A stretch of DNA of 64,000 nucleotides from Desulfoglaeba alkanexedens ALDC (GTDB taxonomy: Bacteria; Desulfobacterota; Syntrophobacteria; Syntrophobacterales; DSM-9756): the NCBI RefSeq assembly GCF_005377625.1, contig NZ_CP040098.1, forward strand, positions 248,001 to 312,000. The letters are read 5' to 3'. The translations under genes and the position numbers were made by a program. Under the pieces are notes generated by a model. It saw only the letters and a program-made list of their open reading frames with translations, searched no databases and had not been told where the DNA came from. Positions 812 to 51,656 of this stretch are shown in pieces. The first letter of the stretch is position 1, and each line of letters opens with the position of its first letter.

Positions 812-1924
812 TCATGAAGACCCGCCCGAACGCCTTTCATAAAAGTCCTTCCTCCAGGATTCGAAGCTTCCCGCTTCGACGGCGTTTCGAATGTCGGCCA
901 TGAGCTTCAGGTAGTAGTGGAGGTTATGGAGCGTGTTGAGCCGGTAGGCCAGCAGTTCCCGGGCGAGAAAAAGATGGCGGAGGTAGGCCCGGGAGAAGCG
1001 GCGGCAGGTATAGCAGGTGCACCCCCGTTCGATGGGCTCGGAATCGTCGGCAAAGCGGCTGTTCTTGATCTGAAGATTTCCGCTGGATGTGAAGAGCGCC
1101 CCGTTTCGAGCGTTCCGGGTCGGCATGACGCAATCGAACATGTCGATGCCGAGGCGCACGCCTTCCACCAGGTCTTCGGGGGTCCCGACGCCCATGAGAT
1201 AGCGCGGGCGTTCTTCGGGGAGGCACGGCGCCAGTTCTTCCAGGACCGAAAGCATCGTTTCTTTCGGTTCCCCCACCGAAAGACTTCCGACGGCATAGCC
1301 TTCGAACCCGATCTCCTGCAACGCTTCCAGGCACGCCTTTCTCAAGTCGGCAAACACACTGCCTTGGACGATCCCGAAGACCGCCTGATGATCGCCCGTT
1401 CGCGACCGCCGGCACCGTTCGGCCCACCGCACGGTGCGCCTCATCGATTCTTCCGCGTAGTCGCGGGTTACCGGATAGGGCGTGCATTCATCGAAGCACA
1501 TGGCGATGTCGGAACCCAGAAGGCGTTGAATCTCCATGGCCGTTTCCGGCCGGATAAAATGCGAGGACCCGTCGATGTGGGACTGAAACCTCACGCCCTC
1601 CTCTTCGACGGCGCGGGTCCGGGCCAGGCTGAACACCTGGAATCCCCCACTATCGGTGAGAATCGCCCGATGCCACGCCATGAAGCGGTGGAGTCCTCCC
1701 AGGCGCGCCACACGCTCGGCACCGGGACGCAGGTAAAGGTGATAGGTGTTTCCCAGGATGATGGAGGCCCCCAGCGACTCCAGTTCGTCCGGAGAAAGGC
1801 TTTTCACCGTCGCCTGGGTACCGACCGGCATGAAAACCGGTGTCTCCACCGTCACACCGCGTGCCGTGACCAAGCGCCCCCGTCGCGCCCTGCCGTCACG
1901 AGCCACCACACGAAACTCCAGCAT
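812..1924 (-). CDS. tgt: Queuine tRNA-ribosyltransferase (TGT)
   Basis: 370 residues, normal for bacterial TGT, which exchanges guanine-34 for preQ1 in GUN-anticodon tRNAs. Visible signatures are DSGGFQVFSL (substrate pocket and catalytic aspartate region), CFDECTPYP, the MGVGTPEDL loop, DCVMPTRNARNG, and the C-terminal zinc site CTCYTCRRFSRAYLRHLF. The ATG start follows a GAGGG ribosome site and lies 9 bp after the queA stop, so the two queuosine genes are co-transcribed and probably translationally coupled. Confidence 0.97.
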   Translation of the reverse strand: MLEFRVVARDGRARRGRLVTARGVTVETPVFMPVGTQATVKSLSPDELESLGASIILGNTYHLYLRPGAERVARLGGLHRFMAWHRAILTDSGGFQVFSLARTRAVEEEGVRFQSHIDGSSHFIRPETAMEIQRLLGSDIAMCFDECTPYPVTRDYAEESMRRTVRWAERCRRSRTGDHQAVFGIVQGSVFADLRKACLEALQEIGFEGYAVGSLSVGEPKETMLSVLEELAPCLPEERPRYLMGVGTPEDLVEGVRLGIDMFDCVMPTRNARNGALFTSSGNLQIKNSRFADDSEPIERGCTCYTCRRFSRAYLRHLFLARELLAYRLNTLHNLHYYLKLMADIRNAVEAGSFESWRKDFYERRSGGSS

Positions 1925-1933
1925 GGTTTTCCC

Positions 1934-3004
1934 TCAAACGATCAGCATGGCGTCCCCATAGCTGTAAAACCGGTATTCTTTTCGAACGGCTTCCGCGTAA
2001 GCGGCCAGGATGGTTTCCCTCCCGGCGAAGGCCGACACCAGCAGGATCAACGAAGACTTCGGAAGGTGGAAATTGGTCACCATGGCATCCACAACGCGGA
2101 ATCGGAAGCCGGGATAGATGTAATGGTCGCAGAACCCGGCAAAGGGTGAAACCTCGCCGAACCGGGCGGCCGTGTACTCCAGCGCGCGGACCACCGTGGT
2201 CCCCACCGCCACCACCCGCCGGCCCGCCCGGCGGACTTCCCGAATCCTCTGAGAAGCCTCCTCACCGATCTCGGTCCATTCGGCGTGGATTCCATGTTCC
2301 CGGATATCCTCCACTCGGATGGGTGAGAAGGTGCCGTAGCCCACGTGGAGTGTCAGGCGGACCGTTTCCACGCCTTTTCCCTCGAGGCATCCCAGGAGGT
2401 TTTCGGTAAAGTGGAGGCCCGCCGTCGGCGCCGCAACGGCGCCCGGCTTCGCGGCATAGATCGTCTGATAATCCTTTCCGTCCTCGAAAGAAACCGCATC
2501 GTCGTTCCGCCGGATATAAGGCGGAAGCGGCACCCTTCCGGCCCGTTCCAGGATCTCCATAAGCGGGGACCCGGTTTCGAACCTGACGGTGACCCGGCCC
2601 TCGCGAACCTCTCCCATCACCCGCGCCATCACTTCCTGTTCCAGGAAAAGCCGGCTCCCCCGCCGCGGCGGCTTGGATGCCCTCAACAGGCAGCGATACC
2701 CTTCGCGGACCCCCACGTCAGGATCCTTGTAAGGGTCCAGCACCAAGAGTTCCACTCGGCCTCCGGTGTCTTTCCGTCCCAGAAGCCGAGCCGGAACGAC
2801 CCGCGTATCGTTTAGAACCAGAACGTCCCCCGCTTGCAGGTAATCCGGAAGGTCCCTGAAGGATCGATGTTCCAGGCGGCCGGATGCGCGCTCCAGCACC
2901 ATGAGCCGGCAGCGGTCTCTTTGGGGAGTGGGCGACTGGGCGATCAGCCGGCCGGGAAGCTCATAATCATAGTCGTCCAACCGGTACGTCGGTCTATCCG
3001 CCAT
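1934..3004 (-). CDS. queA: S-adenosylmethionine:tRNA ribosyltransferase-isomerase QueA
   Basis: 356 residues. QueA converts preQ1-34 in tRNA to epoxyqueuosine using the ribosyl part of SAM. Family blocks seen are YELPGRLIAQSP near the N-terminus, VLNDTRVVPARL, AAPTAGLHFT, LHVGYGTFSPI, VGTTVVRALE and NFHLPKSSLILLVSAF near the C-terminus. The reading frame stays open far upstream, but the ATG at 3004 matches the family start and overlaps the stop of the preceding small DUF2065 gene by 11 bp. Confidence 0.97.
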   Translation of the reverse strand: MADRPTYRLDDYDYELPGRLIAQSPTPQRDRCRLMVLERASGRLEHRSFRDLPDYLQAGDVLVLNDTRVVPARLLGRKDTGGRVELLVLDPYKDPDVGVREGYRCLLRASKPPRRGSRLFLEQEVMARVMGEVREGRVTVRFETGSPLMEILERAGRVPLPPYIRRNDDAVSFEDGKDYQTIYAAKPGAVAAPTAGLHFTENLLGCLEGKGVETVRLTLHVGYGTFSPIRVEDIREHGIHAEWTEIGEEASQRIREVRRAGRRVVAVGTTVVRALEYTAARFGEVSPFAGFCDHYIYPGFRFRVVDAMVTNFHLPKSSLILLVSAFAGRETILAAYAEAVRKEYRFYSYGDAMLIV

Positions 3005-3188
3005 GACGGCGCCCCACGTAAACGAAAAACAGCCCCACCACCATGAGCACTCCGCCCATGACCCGGAGCTGTGCGGGAGGCATCTGGACGACCTGGCGGA
3101 GCCAGCGCTTGATCTGCTCGGGAAACGCCAGATAGGGCAGTCCTTCCAGAAAGCAGATGAGTCCCACAACGGTGAGCCAGTATTCCAT
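2994..3188 (-). CDS. DUF2065 small membrane protein
   Basis: 64 residues with two hydrophobic segments (about residues 4-22 and 42-58) joined by a basic linker containing EQIKRWLRQV. This matches the DUF2065 family of small inner-membrane proteins of unknown function. The ATG was chosen because AAAGGA lies just upstream and because the family is about 60 residues long. The stop overlaps the queA start, so it is the probable first gene of the queA-tgt-yajC-secD operon. Confidence 0.8.
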   Translation of the reverse strand: MEYWLTVVGLICFLEGLPYLAFPEQIKRWLRQVVQMPPAQLRVMGGVLMVVGLFFVYVGRRHGG

Positions 3189-3370
3189 GGATCGTGATTC
3201 CTTTCGATGGGAAGGCCCCACCCGCACACGCGGGCTGCGGCTTCGATCCGCTTGGCAACGGCGCGTGGATCGCCTATCATAAATGTTCGATTTTTGCAAA
3301 GGATTGACGGGCGCTCCCCGGACGTCCCCGCTGAAAGACTTTTGAAACCCACGGCAATGGAGAACCCGGC

Positions 3371-4525
3371 ATGCCCATGAACTGGGTGGAAGTGGACCTG
3401 GCGGCTCTGCGCCACAATTTTTCCCAGCTTCGCGAACGGCTCCTCGTGAATACCGAAGTCATGGCCGTGGTGAAGTCGGACGCCTACGGCCACGGCATGA
3501 TCCCGGTGGCCCGGGAACTGGTCCGGCTGGGGGTCCGTTTTTTCGGTGTGAGCACATTCTGGGAAGCGGTGGAACTTCGCTCCCACGGGATCGAAGGGCC
3601 CGTGGTGGTGCTTCTTGGGATCGAAGAAGCGGACCTGGAAGAGGCCGTGATCCAGGGCATCCGCCCGGTCGTCTACAGGCTGGACCATGCCCGGAAACTC
3701 AGCGAAACGGCCGGCCGCCTGGGCCGCACGGCCCCCTTCCACTTGAAAGTGGACACCGGCATGGGGCGGCTCGGCATCCCCATGGATCAACTGGGGCCGT
3801 TCCTGGACATTTTGCTCAAGCTTCCTCACCTCAGCCTGGAAGGCATCCTGTCTCATTTCGCAACGGCCGACGAGGAGGACAAAAGCTATTCCGACGTTCA
3901 GTTGGAGCAGTTTCGAGCGGCCATCGAAAGCCTGAAGGAACGAAACGTCCCCGTCCCGTACGCTCACATCGCCAACAGTGCCGGGATTCTCGGTCTGCCC
4001 CACGCCCACTTCCAGCTGGTCCGCCCCGGCCTCATGCTCTACGGATCCCCCCCTTCCATGGAACTGCCGCAGCCTGTATCGCTCCGACCTGTGATGACCT
4101 TCAAGTCCAAGATCATCCAGCTCAAGGTGGTGCCGCCGGGCCGCGCCATCGGCTACGGCCGCACCTTCTTCACCCAGCGCACGAGCCGCATCGCGACCGT
4201 TCCGGTGGGCTACGACGATGGCTACGCCCGGTGTCTTTCCAACCGGTCTCAGGTTCTCGTGGCCGGCCGAAGAGTCCCCGTGGTGGGCCGCGTTTCCATG
4301 AACATGATCACCATCGACGTGACCGACGTACCGGAAGCCCGAACTGAGCACGAAGTGGTGCTCCTTGGACCCCAGGGAACCGAAAGGATCACCGCCGAGG
4401 AAATCTCCCGTTGGCAGGGTACCATAAGCTACGAGATCTACTGCAGCATCGGGCGCAATCGCTTCAAGCGTTTCCTGAACGCGACCCCGGAGGGATCTTC
4501 CGAAGCCGCGCCCCCGCGTCCTTGA
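3371..4525 (+). CDS. alr: Alanine racemase
   Basis: 384 residues. A PLP-dependent enzyme that interconverts L- and D-alanine for peptidoglycan. The PLP lysine lies in AVVKSDAYGHG (about residue 36), and the second catalytic tyrosine region is seen in GRVSMNMITIDVTDVP. The IGYGRTF and VPVGYDDGY blocks are also typical. It begins a plus-strand run with argS, diverging from the queA operon with about 180 bp between them. Confidence 0.97.
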   Translation: MPMNWVEVDLAALRHNFSQLRERLLVNTEVMAVVKSDAYGHGMIPVARELVRLGVRFFGVSTFWEAVELRSHGIEGPVVVLLGIEEADLEEAVIQGIRPVVYRLDHARKLSETAGRLGRTAPFHLKVDTGMGRLGIPMDQLGPFLDILLKLPHLSLEGILSHFATADEEDKSYSDVQLEQFRAAIESLKERNVPVPYAHIANSAGILGLPHAHFQLVRPGLMLYGSPPSMELPQPVSLRPVMTFKSKIIQLKVVPPGRAIGYGRTFFTQRTSRIATVPVGYDDGYARCLSNRSQVLVAGRRVPVVGRVSMNMITIDVTDVPEARTEHEVVLLGPQGTERITAEEISRWQGTISYEIYCSIGRNRFKRFLNATPEGSSEAAPPRP

Positions 4526-39119: not shown

Positions 39120-39183
39120 GCACCCAGTTTTGCTTGATCCCACATGGAGACTAGCGGCATACTTCCGTGCCGGTTTCTCCCTC

Positions 39184-39344
39184 GGTCAGGCAGGTCTTCT
39201 GGCTCACGGATCGTCCTACTCTCCCGGCCTTCCCACCGCGCTCACGCGCGGCAGTGGCGCTTCAAGGATTTCGTCCCCGTTCACAGCGGCGGGACCGCTC
39301 CCGATTTCCACGGGATTCCCTTTTAAGCGTTCTCACACCTGACC
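39184..39344 (-). promoter_or_regulatory. Cobalamin (AdoCbl) riboswitch
   Basis: On the minus strand the P1 arms GGTCAGG and CCTGACC close a region containing the conserved GCCACTG, GGGAAGGC and the B12-box sequence GAGCCAGAAGACCTGCC. These are the signature elements of the cobalamin riboswitch. It precedes the small hypothetical gene and cbiK, with a terminator between, so it should switch the operon off when cobalamin is plentiful. Confidence 0.9.
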
Positions 39345-39366
39345 GCTTCAGCAGATTGTCGAGAAA

Positions 39367-42741: not shown

Positions 42742-44934
42742 TCAGACGGTGGCACCGGGCCCGTGCTTGGCCAGCGCTTCGGCGACCGGGAGCAGCTCGA
42801 GAAACCAGGGGTTTTTCGGCCGAGTCAGTCCTTCATCCATTTCCGCCAGGGCCTCATGGAGGTCGAACGCTCCGATGCCCCGGCCCTGCAATCCCAGCAC
42901 CCGCACCCCGGTGTACTTCTGTTCCATGGCGTCCGCAAGGCTGAAGGCGGCAAAGGCGCCCATGCGGCTCGCCAGGATTCGATCGAAAGCCGAAGGCGCG
43001 CCGCCGCGCTGGAGGTGCCCCAGGATGGCGGTGCGGACTTCGAATTCGTCACGGCTTTCTTCTTCCAGCAGGCGCCGGATGAAATCCGTCGTGTAATGGC
43101 GGGATGCCTCCTCGTTTCTGAGGAAAATCACCATGCGTTTGCCGCTCCGGAAGCTTTCTTGGAGCATGTCCACGTCACGGCTCAGGTCGCGGAGGCGGAT
43201 CCCCAGTTCCGGCAGGTAGGCCTTTTCGGCCCCTGAAGCCAGGGCTCCCAGAAGCGCCAGGAACCCGGACCGGCGGCCCATCACTTCAACCACGAAGGCC
43301 CTCCGGGTGGCACCGGCGGTATGACGGATCTTGTCCAGGACCTGGATGACGTTATTCAAGGCGGTGTCGGCCCCGATGGTGAATTCGGTGCAGGGCAGGT
43401 TGTTGTCGATGGTCGCGGGAAGAACCACGATGGGGATATCGAGTTCGGGGAACCGGCGGCGGTTTTCCACCATCCGGGCCACGTTGAGATAGCTTCCCAG
43501 GCCGCCGATCACGATGAGTCCCTTCAAGCCGTGACGCGATATGTTTTCGGCGATTTTCGCCAGGTCCTCTTCCCTCACATCGTGACGGAGCGTACCGAGT
43601 TCCGAACTGGGCCGGTTCAGCCAGCCGGTCAGTTCGTTCCAGCCGAGTTCCCGCAGGCGCCCGTGGATCAATCCCGGAAACGATTCCAAAACCCCGTAGA
43701 CGGCGATGCCCTGGTTCAGCAGGCAGCGGGCCGCCACGCTCACCGCCGTGTTCATCCCCGGAGCGTCCGCGCCGCCGGTGAGGATCCCCACGCCTCCTTC
43801 CCCCTGGGATTTCTCGGCGGGCTCGATGCGCGACAGCGTCTTCACAAGTTCCAAGCCACGGGTGAAACTTTCCCCTCTCAGTTCCTGAGCCTTACCGTAA
43901 CTGCCGTTTTCGATCTCTTGCGCCACCCTGCGGCTCTGTTCCACGACTTCGGCCAGCGGCGTAGCCGTCACCCGGTTTTTCTGGAGTCCCAGCATGTGCC
44001 GGAGCTTCCCCGGCGGCTCCTTCACCAGCAGATCCACGGCGGCCACGCCGAGCCGTGTTGCGAGAATTCGGTCGAAGGCCGTGGGCGAGCCGCCCCGCTG
44101 AACGTGACCCAAGACCGTGATCCGCACATCGATGGCCAGTTGCTCGCAAAGGATCCGCCGGATTTCTTCGGCTCGAATGGGAAGCCCGTCGGGGTGGCGG
44201 GCTCCTTCCGCTACCACCACCATCTGGTGAGGCCGCCCGATTTCCCTGGATTTTCGCAGTGAACGCACCATCTTCTGATGCCAGCGAAGTTCCAACTCCT
44301 CTTCCGGAACCAACACCCACGACGCTCCGCCCGCCAGCGATCCCATGAGAGCCAGGTAACCGCAGTGGCGCCCCATGGTTTCCAAGACGAAGGTCCGCTG
44401 GTGACTGGCGGCGGTGGAACTCAAATCATCGATGGCCTGCACGATGTGATTCAGGGCCGTGTCCGCGCCGATGGACATATCGGTTCCGAACAGGTCGTTG
44501 TCGATGGAACCCGGAAGACCGATGACCTGGAGAGCCTCCGGCGCCTCTTCCAGTCCCAGCGACGCCAGATGCTCCGGCCATTCCGAAGCCAGCACGTGAG
44601 CGCCCATGAGGGAACCGTCGCCGCCGATCACCACCAGCGCCCCGATTCCGCGCTCGACCAGGTTGGCCACCGCCGCCCGGCGTCCCTCGGGCAGCCTGAA
44701 ACGCTCGGACCGGGCGGTTCCCAGAAACGTTCCACCTCTGGGTAGAATCCCACCCACATCCTGCCACCCCAACAGCCGGATGCTGTCGCCGCCTGCCACC
44801 AACCCCTCGTAGCCGTTGAACACACCGTGGACCGGAACGCCGCAGTCCAGCGCACGCCTCACCACAGCGCGGACGGCGGCGTTCATCCCGGGAGCATCAC
44901 CGCCGCTGGTGAGAACCGCGAGAGAACGGATCAT
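42742..44934 (-). CDS. pfkA: Tandem 6-phosphofructokinase with degenerate C-terminal half
   Basis: 730 residues, about twice the bacterial norm: two PFK domains (about 1-360 and 378-725). The N-half is catalytically complete: TSGGDAPGMNAAVR, GGDGS (104-108) and PGSIDND (141-147), the ATP-type rather than the PPi-type (K) version. The C-half keeps the fold (GGADAPGMNTAVS, IGADTALNNVI, ILGHLQRGGAPSAFDR) but has GGLGS (477-481) for GGDGS and PATIDNN (506-512) for PGTIDND, losing the Mg-binding Asp and the second Asp. This mirrors eukaryotic PFK, whose C-half has become regulatory. Confidence 0.92.
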   Translation of the reverse strand: MIRSLAVLTSGGDAPGMNAAVRAVVRRALDCGVPVHGVFNGYEGLVAGGDSIRLLGWQDVGGILPRGGTFLGTARSERFRLPEGRRAAVANLVERGIGALVVIGGDGSLMGAHVLASEWPEHLASLGLEEAPEALQVIGLPGSIDNDLFGTDMSIGADTALNHIVQAIDDLSSTAASHQRTFVLETMGRHCGYLALMGSLAGGASWVLVPEEELELRWHQKMVRSLRKSREIGRPHQMVVVAEGARHPDGLPIRAEEIRRILCEQLAIDVRITVLGHVQRGGSPTAFDRILATRLGVAAVDLLVKEPPGKLRHMLGLQKNRVTATPLAEVVEQSRRVAQEIENGSYGKAQELRGESFTRGLELVKTLSRIEPAEKSQGEGGVGILTGGADAPGMNTAVSVAARCLLNQGIAVYGVLESFPGLIHGRLRELGWNELTGWLNRPSSELGTLRHDVREEDLAKIAENISRHGLKGLIVIGGLGSYLNVARMVENRRRFPELDIPIVVLPATIDNNLPCTEFTIGADTALNNVIQVLDKIRHTAGATRRAFVVEVMGRRSGFLALLGALASGAEKAYLPELGIRLRDLSRDVDMLQESFRSGKRMVIFLRNEEASRHYTTDFIRRLLEEESRDEFEVRTAILGHLQRGGAPSAFDRILASRMGAFAAFSLADAMEQKYTGVRVLGLQGRGIGAFDLHEALAEMDEGLTRPKNPWFLELLPVAEALAKHGPGATV

Positions 44935-44989
44935 GTCTTCGCCTCCCGAAATGGCGGAAAATCCCGCCGTTCGTAGATTCCTTCGCCGT

Positions 44990-45463: not shown

Positions 45464-47341
45464 TTACCCCCGCGTCACCTCCAGTGCGAAATCCAGCCCC
45501 AGCCGCTCGAACACCGCACGGTGCGGAACGCCCGTCTCCGGGTCCCAGCCCATGGCTTCGTAATAGTCGCGGATCTGGCTGTCGTTGTCCACCGTCACGC
45601 CCTGAGTGGGACCGCTTGGAAGCGGCGGGTTCCCGAGAACGCGACCTGGAAGCCGAAAACGTTCGACGTTTCGAATGCCCTCGCGCAGGTTGAAGGCGAT
45701 CCTGATGTTCGCGATCCGCTCTCCGACGGCGAGCACATCCTCCAGCGTGAACGGGCGCCCCAGGGCCAAGGTCAGGTATTCGGATAGCACCCGGCCGGGC
45801 GTGATCAGGGACGCGAACATGCAGACACCGGCCGCATTCACCACATGACCGAAACAGGACGCAAATTTGTGCGCCTCACCCTTTCCCCGGTAGACGTAAC
45901 GACCGGCGATCTTCGGGACATCCAGATCTTCCGGCAGCATATTGCCTTCCACGAACCACGAACCGTACTGGGTGTGTCGGCCGGGCGTCGCGTCCGCCAC
46001 ATAGCTCACGCCCAGACCCGGAAAACACCTCGGGTCGTGCATGGGCAACTCCTCGCCGCCGCATTCCATGCCGGCCGCCTCAGCGCCGCCGCCGATCCGT
46101 TCCGCGGCCCGGCGAACGCCGTCTCCCAGCACCTTCCCGCCGAAGCCCTCGCCGCGGGCGATTTGCTCGGTGAGCTCCACGACCGCTTGGTGATTTCCCC
46201 ACGCGAGCTTCAGTCCGCCGGTGTCCGCCTCCGAAATCAGCCCTTTGTCAAAGCACTCGAAGGCAAAGGCCACCACGGCGCCGGTGGAAATGGTGTCCAG
46301 GCCGAAGTCGTTACACAGGTTGTTTACGCGGCAGATGGATTCCAGGTTGTCGTTGAGGCACATGGCGCCGAAGGCCCCGAGCGTTTCGTATTCCGGCTTG
46401 TGACCTTCTCCCGCGTAGGGTCCCGCCTCGACCTTCACGCGGCCGCCGCAAGCGATGGGACAGCGCCAGCAGCTGTACGGTTTCACCTGAATGCGCCGCA
46501 CGGCTTCGCCGCTGATCCGATCCGCGCCGGCAAAGGCCTCCGGCGGCGCCATCCAGTTCTTGATGGGGGTATCGCCCATGCGGACCCTGGATTCCAATCC
46601 GCCCGGCGTTCCGTAATTGTGGTAAAATTCGTACATGGGGTTCGTGACCTGATAATGGGTGGATAGAATCTCCTTCCGAAGCGCTTTCAGCTTCTCGTCT
46701 TCCGCCACCGGGACCTCGCCGCCGCCCACGGCCACCACCGCCTTCACCCGTTTCGATCCCATAACGGCTCCCAGCCCTGACCGTCCGGCCGCCCGCCCCC
46801 CATCGTTGATGATACAAGCAAGCAGTGAACGCCTTTCACCCGCCGGGCCCACCACCGCCGATCGTGCGTTCTTCCCGTGCCGGTCCTTCAGTCTCTCTTC
46901 CGCTTCGCCGCATGGGAGCCCCCACAGATCCGAGGCGTCATGGAGCGTCACCCGGCCGTCTTCCACCACCACGTATACCGGTTCTTCCGAAATGCCGGAA
47001 AAATAGACCGCATCCAGTCCAGCCTGCTTGAGAGCGGGCCCGAAGGTTCCGCCGCAATTGGCGTCGCCCCATCCGCCGGTTTTAGGAGATTTTCCGACCG
47101 CCGTAAACCGGTTTCCCGTGATGGCGGCGGTTCCGGTGAGCGGGCCCGTGGTGAGGCCGAACACGTTTTCCGGGCCCAGCGGATCCACACCCGGGCGCTG
47201 GCGGGTGTACAGCAAATACGCCGCCAATCCGTAGCCGCCCAGGTACTTCAGGTAGAGTTCATCCGGTGGTGCTTCAATCTTCGTCTCTTGGCTTGCCAAA
47301 TCCACCCACGCAATCCGTCCTCGTACTCCTTGAAGACTCAT
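45464..47341 (-). CDS. Aldehyde:ferredoxin oxidoreductase (AOR) family
   Basis: 625 residues. Tungsten/molybdenum-bis-pterin enzyme of the AOR family, which oxidises aldehydes (or performs related reductions) with ferredoxin. The N-terminal domain has YLGGYGLAAYLLY and TGPLTGTAAITGNRFTAVGK; the 4Fe-4S ligands begin at CWRCPIACGG (about 291), and a FGLDTISTGAVVAFAFECF block follows. ATG at 47341 follows GGAAGGAGG. No ferredoxin or pterin-synthesis gene is adjacent. The end of the gene lies next to MITE copy B. Confidence 0.92.
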   Translation of the reverse strand: MSLQGVRGRIAWVDLASQETKIEAPPDELYLKYLGGYGLAAYLLYTRQRPGVDPLGPENVFGLTTGPLTGTAAITGNRFTAVGKSPKTGGWGDANCGGTFGPALKQAGLDAVYFSGISEEPVYVVVEDGRVTLHDASDLWGLPCGEAEERLKDRHGKNARSAVVGPAGERRSLLACIINDGGRAAGRSGLGAVMGSKRVKAVVAVGGGEVPVAEDEKLKALRKEILSTHYQVTNPMYEFYHNYGTPGGLESRVRMGDTPIKNWMAPPEAFAGADRISGEAVRRIQVKPYSCWRCPIACGGRVKVEAGPYAGEGHKPEYETLGAFGAMCLNDNLESICRVNNLCNDFGLDTISTGAVVAFAFECFDKGLISEADTGGLKLAWGNHQAVVELTEQIARGEGFGGKVLGDGVRRAAERIGGGAEAAGMECGGEELPMHDPRCFPGLGVSYVADATPGRHTQYGSWFVEGNMLPEDLDVPKIAGRYVYRGKGEAHKFASCFGHVVNAAGVCMFASLITPGRVLSEYLTLALGRPFTLEDVLAVGERIANIRIAFNLREGIRNVERFRLPGRVLGNPPLPSGPTQGVTVDNDSQIRDYYEAMGWDPETGVPHRAVFERLGLDFALEVTRG

Positions 47342-47591
47342 CGATTCCTCCTTCCAAGCGTTACGACTCCCACCTTGCCATGACGGCATTCGGCGACACT
47401 CTTTGGATCCAACCTAACCCGCCAATCCCCAAAGTTCCAGAGCCCCCCCGGGTCTGAAACGTCCGCCACGCAAGCGGAGTGGCCGGCGCAAGCGAACACC
47501 CTCCGTTCACAAAGGCACCCCGAAGGCGCTTCCAGACGGAAAGCCGCAATTTGGCCTTGCCAACCCTCAAGCTCTACAGTAGAAATAATAT

Positions 47592-51569: not shown

Positions 51570-51656
51570 CGTTTCCGAAAGGGCAAAACCGTCGTGAGGC
51601 GGTGACGCAAAGCCACGGGTCCGCGTGGAGCGGGCAGCCGGGCTGCCGAAGAAACG
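51570..51656 (+). promoter_or_regulatory. Cyclic-di-GMP-I (GEMM) riboswitch
   Basis: The P1 arms CGTTTC (51570) and GAAACG (51651) enclose the conserved core: AGGGCAAAACC, then GTGACGCAAAGCCACGGGTC, then GGCAGCCGGGCTGCCGA. These match the GEMM-I aptamer. By eye the position equal to G20 of the Vc2 aptamer is G, which favours c-di-GMP over cGAMP. The P1 3' strand can pair instead with GCTCCGTTTC at 51688-51697. It stands 79 bp before a secreted protease gene. Confidence 0.88.

Follow-up and report, generated by a model that had tools for sequence, protein, structure and literature searches.

The window analyzed here, a stretch of 64,000 nucleotides from the genome of Desulfoglaeba alkanexedens ALDC, carries a gene for a tandem 6-phosphofructokinase (PFK). 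Judged from its sequence, the product is probably an ATP-dependent PFK with a catalytic N-half and a regulatory C-half that binds sugar phosphates, arising from a duplication that is shared with animal and fungal PFK-1 and that took place in bacteria.

Results

The gene is located at 42742..44934, on the minus strand, as are all its parts listed below; the original prediction had given this open reading frame without a strand. It encodes 730 amino acids, with an ATG start at 44934, a stop codon at 42742-42744 and, by inspection of the sequence, a probable ribosome-binding site, GGGAGG, at 44942..44947 of the same strand, i.e., 8-13 nt 5' of the ATG. The N-half (residues 1-378; 43801..44934) is predicted to be catalytic and of the ATP type, from its equivalents of G104 and G124 in E. 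coli PfkA. The C-half (residues 379-730; 42745..43800) is catalytically degenerate and is predicted to be the sugar-phosphate effector half. The Pfam PFK model matches two stretches of the protein, for a total of 635 bits, and the two halves are 41% identical when aligned with each other.

The proposal of a bacterial tandem PFK at this position is also borne out by the family model TIGR02478 (NCBIfam, 6PF1K_euk), which scores 804.9 bits relative to a cut-off of 708.4 and aligns over residues 4-724 of 730 and model positions 2-742 of 744. In a search of PDB sequences, human and rabbit PFKM were the top matches, at about 600 bits each and as one full-length alignment; human PFKM scored 608 bits, compared with 268 bits for the Geobacillus PFK, the best single bacterial PFK. 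An AlphaFold2 model, built from a 15-sequence alignment, had a pLDDT of 90 and a pTM of 0.91. In a Foldseek search with this model the best 36 matches were chains of eukaryotic tandem PFKs, with a top TMq of 0.96, and single bacterial PFKs followed after them at a TMq of about 0.4; the superposition on 8w2g, which has the human PFK-1 fold, gave a TMq of 0.96 and an rmsd of 1.8. Because the family score, the PDB sequence matches and the fold matches all agree, we conclude that the window protein has the eukaryotic PFK architecture proper, and does not merely resemble it. It thus has the full-length score, the human PFK-1 fold and, as described next, the common duplication of the TIGR02478 type; the combination of a catalytic N-half with a non-catalytic C-half is seen in the residues alone, in the loss of D103 and D129 from the C-half.

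The history of the duplication was assessed with two trees. A careful tree of 82 rows included the halves of 31 of 91 bacterial and 5 of 7 eukaryotic tandem proteins together with 10 single PFKs, and a quick tree of 141 rows included 50 bacterial and 7 eukaryotic tandem proteins; the eukaryotic sequences are from animals and yeasts only. A phylogeny of bacterial and eukaryotic halves had been proposed along with the original prediction, and it demonstrates that the halves are duplicates: in the careful tree every N-half falls in one clade (100/96) and every C-half in another (100/100). Both half-subtrees then separate a clade I from a clade II plus the eukaryotes (100/97 in N, 100/98 in C). 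Clade I consists of the window's order, locus L015 and the Chloroflexota loci L020, L023 and L143. The quick tree agrees on the grouping of clade II with eukaryotes (98 in N, 97 in C), while the clade I C-halves are unresolved there. AU tests in which the halves were held together reject a duplication of its own both for clade I (p 7.5e-8) and for eukaryotes (p 7.8e-52).

The junction between the halves tells the same story. The window protein has an insert at residues 340-356 (EIENGSYGKAQELRGES; 43867..43917) that is common to eukaryotic PFKs and not found in single PFKs. Its R353 is present in 88/88 bacterial and 7/7 eukaryotic tandem proteins, and the insert motif as a whole in 94 of 98 tandem rows (L016 and three Actinomycetota lack it) and in 0/27 single PFKs. 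Based on the trees of both halves, the AU tests and this common insert, a single duplication and fusion is the sole reading that fits the data. The original prediction had described the bacterial enzyme as parallel to eukaryotic PFK, leaving open whether its origin was independent or shared; since the N- and C-clades each mix bacteria with eukaryotes and the AU tests reject separate duplications, the word parallel does not hold, and of the two origins it is the shared one that stands.

Locus L016 (G071; 1204-3555, minus strand), from the window's phylum, encodes a divergent tandem PFK that scores 449 bits to TIGR02478, i.e., below the cut-off. Its C-half evolves very fast, with IGSNMAY and PADTNCN at the motif positions, and a C-terminal extension is present. 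It was omitted from the careful tree because the end branch of its C-half has a length of 3.62 and because its N-half lies outside the N-halves and single PFKs in the quick tree. It is possibly a second, independent tandem PFK.

To compare active sites, we mapped the window protein onto E. coli PfkA and numbered residues accordingly. The active-site numbering is one that we assume for E. coli, and it was used in place of the 19 residues that contact F2,6BP. Residues were counted in 88 bacterial tandem proteins, including that of the window, and in 7 eukaryotic ones; the 88 were obtained from 96 tandem open reading frames (window included) by removing 5 duplicates of named loci, L016 and 2 short frames (L032, L038).

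The N-half of the window protein has the expected residue at 16 of the 16 active-site positions compared, counting a Ser at the T125 position that almost every tandem relative has too, as do the 7 eukaryotic sequences, and this active site is conserved nearly without exception across the 88 bacterial and 7 eukaryotic proteins. The Mg/ATP loop GGDGS (residues 104-108; 44611..44625) and the catalytic loop PGSIDND (residues 141-147; 44494..44514), both assigned from sequence and PfkA mapping, are those reported in the original prediction. ATP rather than PPi is the phosphoryl donor of PFKs with Gly at positions 104 and 124 (E. coli numbering). As the window N-half has G107 and G142 at these two positions, ATP is its predicted donor.

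The three C-half motifs were likewise where the original prediction implied. The loop GGLGS (residues 477-481; 43492..43506) is without the Mg-binding Asp, D103 being replaced by L479; the loop PATIDNN (residues 506-512; 43399..43419) keeps the equivalent of D127, the catalytic base, as D510 and has N512 in place of D129; and LGHLQRGG (residues 638-645; 43000..43023), in the sugar-phosphate pocket, keeps H249 (H640) and R252 (R643). A third loss is that of G11, now A389. Also retained are R162 (R545), R171 (R554), E222 (E608) and R243 (R634). Thus the claimed losses of the Mg-binding Asp and of one active-site Asp, and the claimed retention of a sugar-phosphate pocket (R162, E222, R243, H249, R252), are all seen, and the residues lost support an inactivated C-half. 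The further statement that eukaryotic C-halves carry a PAT..NN loop is correct, in that PDB sequences read PATVSNN, PATISNN or PATLSNN.

These features extend to the family. D103 is absent from the C-half in all 95 tandem proteins (88/88 bacterial, 7/7 eukaryotic), and in the 88 bacterial proteins this position is never acidic, with mostly Trp, Leu or Phe instead. Because the window halves are 41% identical and D103 is lost in 88 of 88 bacterial proteins, the tandem pattern is, at the level of sequence, far beyond chance. R162 is conserved in 95/95 C-halves and E222 in 94/95; among bacteria the counts are 88/88 for each of these two, 87/88 for R243 and 75/88 for H249, which is lost in 11 clade II members that have Pro at that position. 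The clade I C-halves keep the D127 equivalent in 24/26, R171 in 21/26 and R252 in 26/26, and have lost D129 in 26/26. At R252, Arg is found in 0/62 clade II proteins, where Gln is the residue in 57, and Gln is found in 7/7 eukaryotes.

The proposed mechanism is that the N-half would phosphorylate fructose 6-phosphate with ATP, while the C-half would be a former active site that is incapable of catalysis but has retained its fructose-phosphate pocket. The probable ligand of the C-half is a sugar phosphate, either F6P, fructose 1,6-bisphosphate or one like them, and it may tune the affinity of the N-half. It is from the conservation of the pocket that we infer a regulatory half. According to the available part of a 2025 review, human and yeast PFK bind F2,6BP in this same pocket, and the structure of human PFKP (4XZ2) has fructose 1,6-bisphosphate in the C-half pocket and a lost ATP pocket (PMC12203962).

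We assessed whether F2,6BP could be the ligand by searching for PFK-2 (PF01591, Pfam 6PF2K). The window genome has only a sub-threshold match, at 19.9 bits relative to a cut-off of 27, and none of the 67 tandem-bearing genomes outside the window's order has a match over the cut-off; F2,6BP is therefore an unlikely ligand of the bacterial C-half. Within the order, 7 of 39 genomes do exceed the PF01591 cut-off. A comparison that covered one of these seven (L113) and L100, the sub-threshold match of the window genome, gave far higher scores for AAA_33 (90.8 and 112.3 bits, respectively), so that PFK-2 was rejected for these loci, and the seven matches look like another P-loop kinase family. L100 (451-2124) and L113 (472-2115) each encode a two-part protein of about 550 amino acids whose C-terminal AAA_33 kinase weakly resembles 6-phosphofructo-2-kinase; as it exceeds the Pfam 6PF2K cut-off, L113 is a trap for automated annotation.

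The classical ADP/PEP effector site of E. coli, which we take to consist of R21, R25, R54, R154, E187, K211 and K213, is intact in neither half. The N-half keeps R21 and R25 and has W, S, S, I and R at the other five positions, respectively; the C-half has S, R, W, R, E, S and K at the seven, so that R54 is W in both. Control of the E. coli type by ADP and PEP may thus be gone. Because this site is altered in both halves, control of the window enzyme probably differs from that of the textbook bacterial PFK.

We next consider how widespread the tandem gene is. In the window's order, 30 of 39 genomes have a protein over the TIGR02478 cut-off, 3 a partial one and 6 none, and we count this as support for vertical inheritance within the order. 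Across phyla, the genomes over this cut-off number 11/297 of those sampled in the window's own phylum, 27/251 in that of a Caldilineales locus, 15/296 in that of Scrofimicrobium, 11/240 in that of Lentisphaerae WC36 and 1/296 in that of a Cyclobacteriaceae MAG. Related tandem genes occur in Chloroflexota, Actinomycetota, Verrucomicrobiota/Lentisphaerota and others; among the matches listed for the C-half alignment against named genome contigs, there are also tandem frames in Holophagae, Deltaproteobacteria and UBP9 MAGs. Eukaryotic contamination is ruled out, as the hosts include isolates and complete genomes (Scrofimicrobium canadense; Lentisphaerae bacterium WC36).

The window genome, a single contig of 3.37 Mb, has two additional single PFK genes (L003, L004). 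One is of the PRK06830 type (637 bits); the other reads GGDDT/PKTMDND and, by the residue rule given above, would use PPi. In six other loci (L025, L127, L131, L135, L137, L140) a single PFK frame of 386-389 amino acids lies near the tandem gene; five of the six are from the Chloroflexota sample, and L025 is from a Caldilineaceae MAG.

Directly upstream of the window gene, on the same strand, is an aldehyde ferredoxin oxidoreductase (AFOR_N and AFOR_C; 45464-47389, minus), which is not beside the PFK in relatives within the flanks compared. A tblastn comparison of the three flanking window genes with 36 loci (flanks of about 1.5 kb, up to 6 kb for named loci) found no conserved neighbor, and gene context therefore gives no clue to function. 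Two riboswitches were also noted in the window, c-di-GMP-I-GGC at 51573-51651 (plus strand) and cobalamin at 39172-39357 (minus strand).

Lastly, the direction of the shared history was assessed with a concatenated alignment rooted, for the N- and C-halves alike, on single PFKs. In the resulting tree the first branch is clade I, and clade II groups with eukaryotes (100/99). AU tests on this set reject a placement of eukaryotes outside all bacteria (p 0.0003) as well as one with clade I (p 0.0002). Since a placement of eukaryotes outside every bacterial tandem PFK is not rejected when the N-half is taken by itself (p 0.079), the position of the root leans on the concatenated set. The R252 character of the C-half agrees with it, Gln being common to eukaryotes and most of clade II, and Arg being found in clade I. 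The place of eukaryotes within clade II differs by half: they are nested in N (99/93) and sister to the clade II bacteria in C (91/88). Because the clade of the window is the first branch of the tandem family, we conclude that both events, the duplication and the inactivation of the C-half, most likely took place in bacteria and predate the presence of the gene in eukaryotes; the rooting supports this order of events, though it does not prove it.

Discussion

In its full-length tandem organization, predicted fold and junction insert, the window protein is like eukaryotic PFK-1 (human PFKM, PFKL and PFKP; yeast PFK1 and PFK2), and so it is in its intact N-half active site, a C-half without D103 and the conservation of the C-half F6P pocket. 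It differs in that it is 39-43% identical to these enzymes, in that its C-half is less degenerate (the equivalents of D127, R171 and R252 are kept, whereas the 7 eukaryotes have Ser, Gly and Gln), and in that its genome has no PFK-2 match over the cut-off for making F2,6BP. In addition, its frame begins at the PFK domain, whereas yeast PFKs have an extra N-terminal domain, according to the available part of the review (PMC12203962). The clade II bacterial enzymes (Chloroflexota, Actinomycetota, Verrucomicrobiota/Lentisphaerota and others) belong to the same family and have the same C-half loss. They are 41-50% identical to the window protein, have replaced R252 as eukaryotes have (Gln in 57/62) and, in the trees, are nearer to eukaryotes than the window's clade is. 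Single bacterial ATP-PFKs such as E. coli PfkA and the Geobacillus PFK share the active-site residues of the N-half, but consist of one domain of about 320 amino acids, without the junction insert and with other residues at the effector site.

Could the tandem gene of this bacterial lineage instead come from a duplication and fusion separate from that of eukaryotes? In favor are the 41% identity of the halves within one protein and the single PFK genes that tandem-bearing bacteria also have. Given the AU rejections of separate duplications, the common junction insert and the loss of C-half D103 throughout, however, parallel evolution is exceedingly improbable. A more serious alternative, if an unlikely one, is an origin of the tandem gene in an early eukaryote, followed by at least two transfers to bacteria. 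The patchy spread across phyla (from 1/296 to 27/251 genomes) suggests horizontal transfer, the eukaryotes sampled are opisthokonts only, and the N-half alone tolerates eukaryotes outside bacteria. Yet rooting on single PFKs separates two bacterial groups at the first split, a single bacterial clade beside the eukaryotes is rejected by the AU test on the concatenated set (p 0.0003), and the gene appears to have spread vertically in the window's order.

Other alternatives concern what the C-half does. It might only complete the four-domain assembly and bind nothing, as the losses of D103, D129 and G11, and of H249 in those 11 clade II proteins that have Pro there, would permit. This is doubtful, because a pocket under no selection would not stay so strictly conserved, from R162 and E222 in every bacterial C-half, through R243 and H249 in most, to R252 in every member of clade I. 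Conversely, the C-half might still be catalytic, acting on another substrate or with its metal arranged differently, given that clade I so largely keeps D127, R171 and R252 and the window protein keeps H249 too. We consider this very unlikely: the D103 position is non-acidic in all 88 bacterial proteins and mostly has Trp or Leu, either of which would obstruct the site for Mg-ATP, and D129 is gone from the whole of clade I. Our preferred reading is therefore that of a C-half that would no longer catalyze but would still sense a sugar phosphate.

In the available part of the 2025 review, the duplication is described for eukaryotic PFKs only, as eukaryotic history (PMC12203962). We found no publication on tandem or eukaryote-type bacterial PFK or on TIGR02478, which is weak evidence of novelty, as many journals lie outside the search. 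The TIGR02478 family entry itself presumably names one bacterial exception, Propionibacterium acnes, and so bacterial members of the tandem family are not wholly new; what does appear to be new is how widely they occur, together with the deep clade I and the position of the root.

Among gene duplications that yielded an allosteric half, PFK-1 is a textbook example. On balance, we lean slightly toward a history in which bacteria duplicated the gene, lost catalysis in the C-half and turned it into a sensor of fructose phosphates, all before there was F2,6BP signaling; the eukaryotic ancestor would then have taken a copy from clade II and later added the ligand made by PFK-2, and clade I would represent the early state, its C-half retaining D127, R171 and R252 and sensing F6P or FBP itself. 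If the double enzyme is indeed bacterial, its regulatory half is older than the well-known ligand F2,6BP, and what eukaryotes received was an enzyme whose regulation was already in place. The less degenerate C-halves of bacteria make this order of events testable, i.e., that catalysis was lost, sugar binding was retained, and the ligand was changed later.
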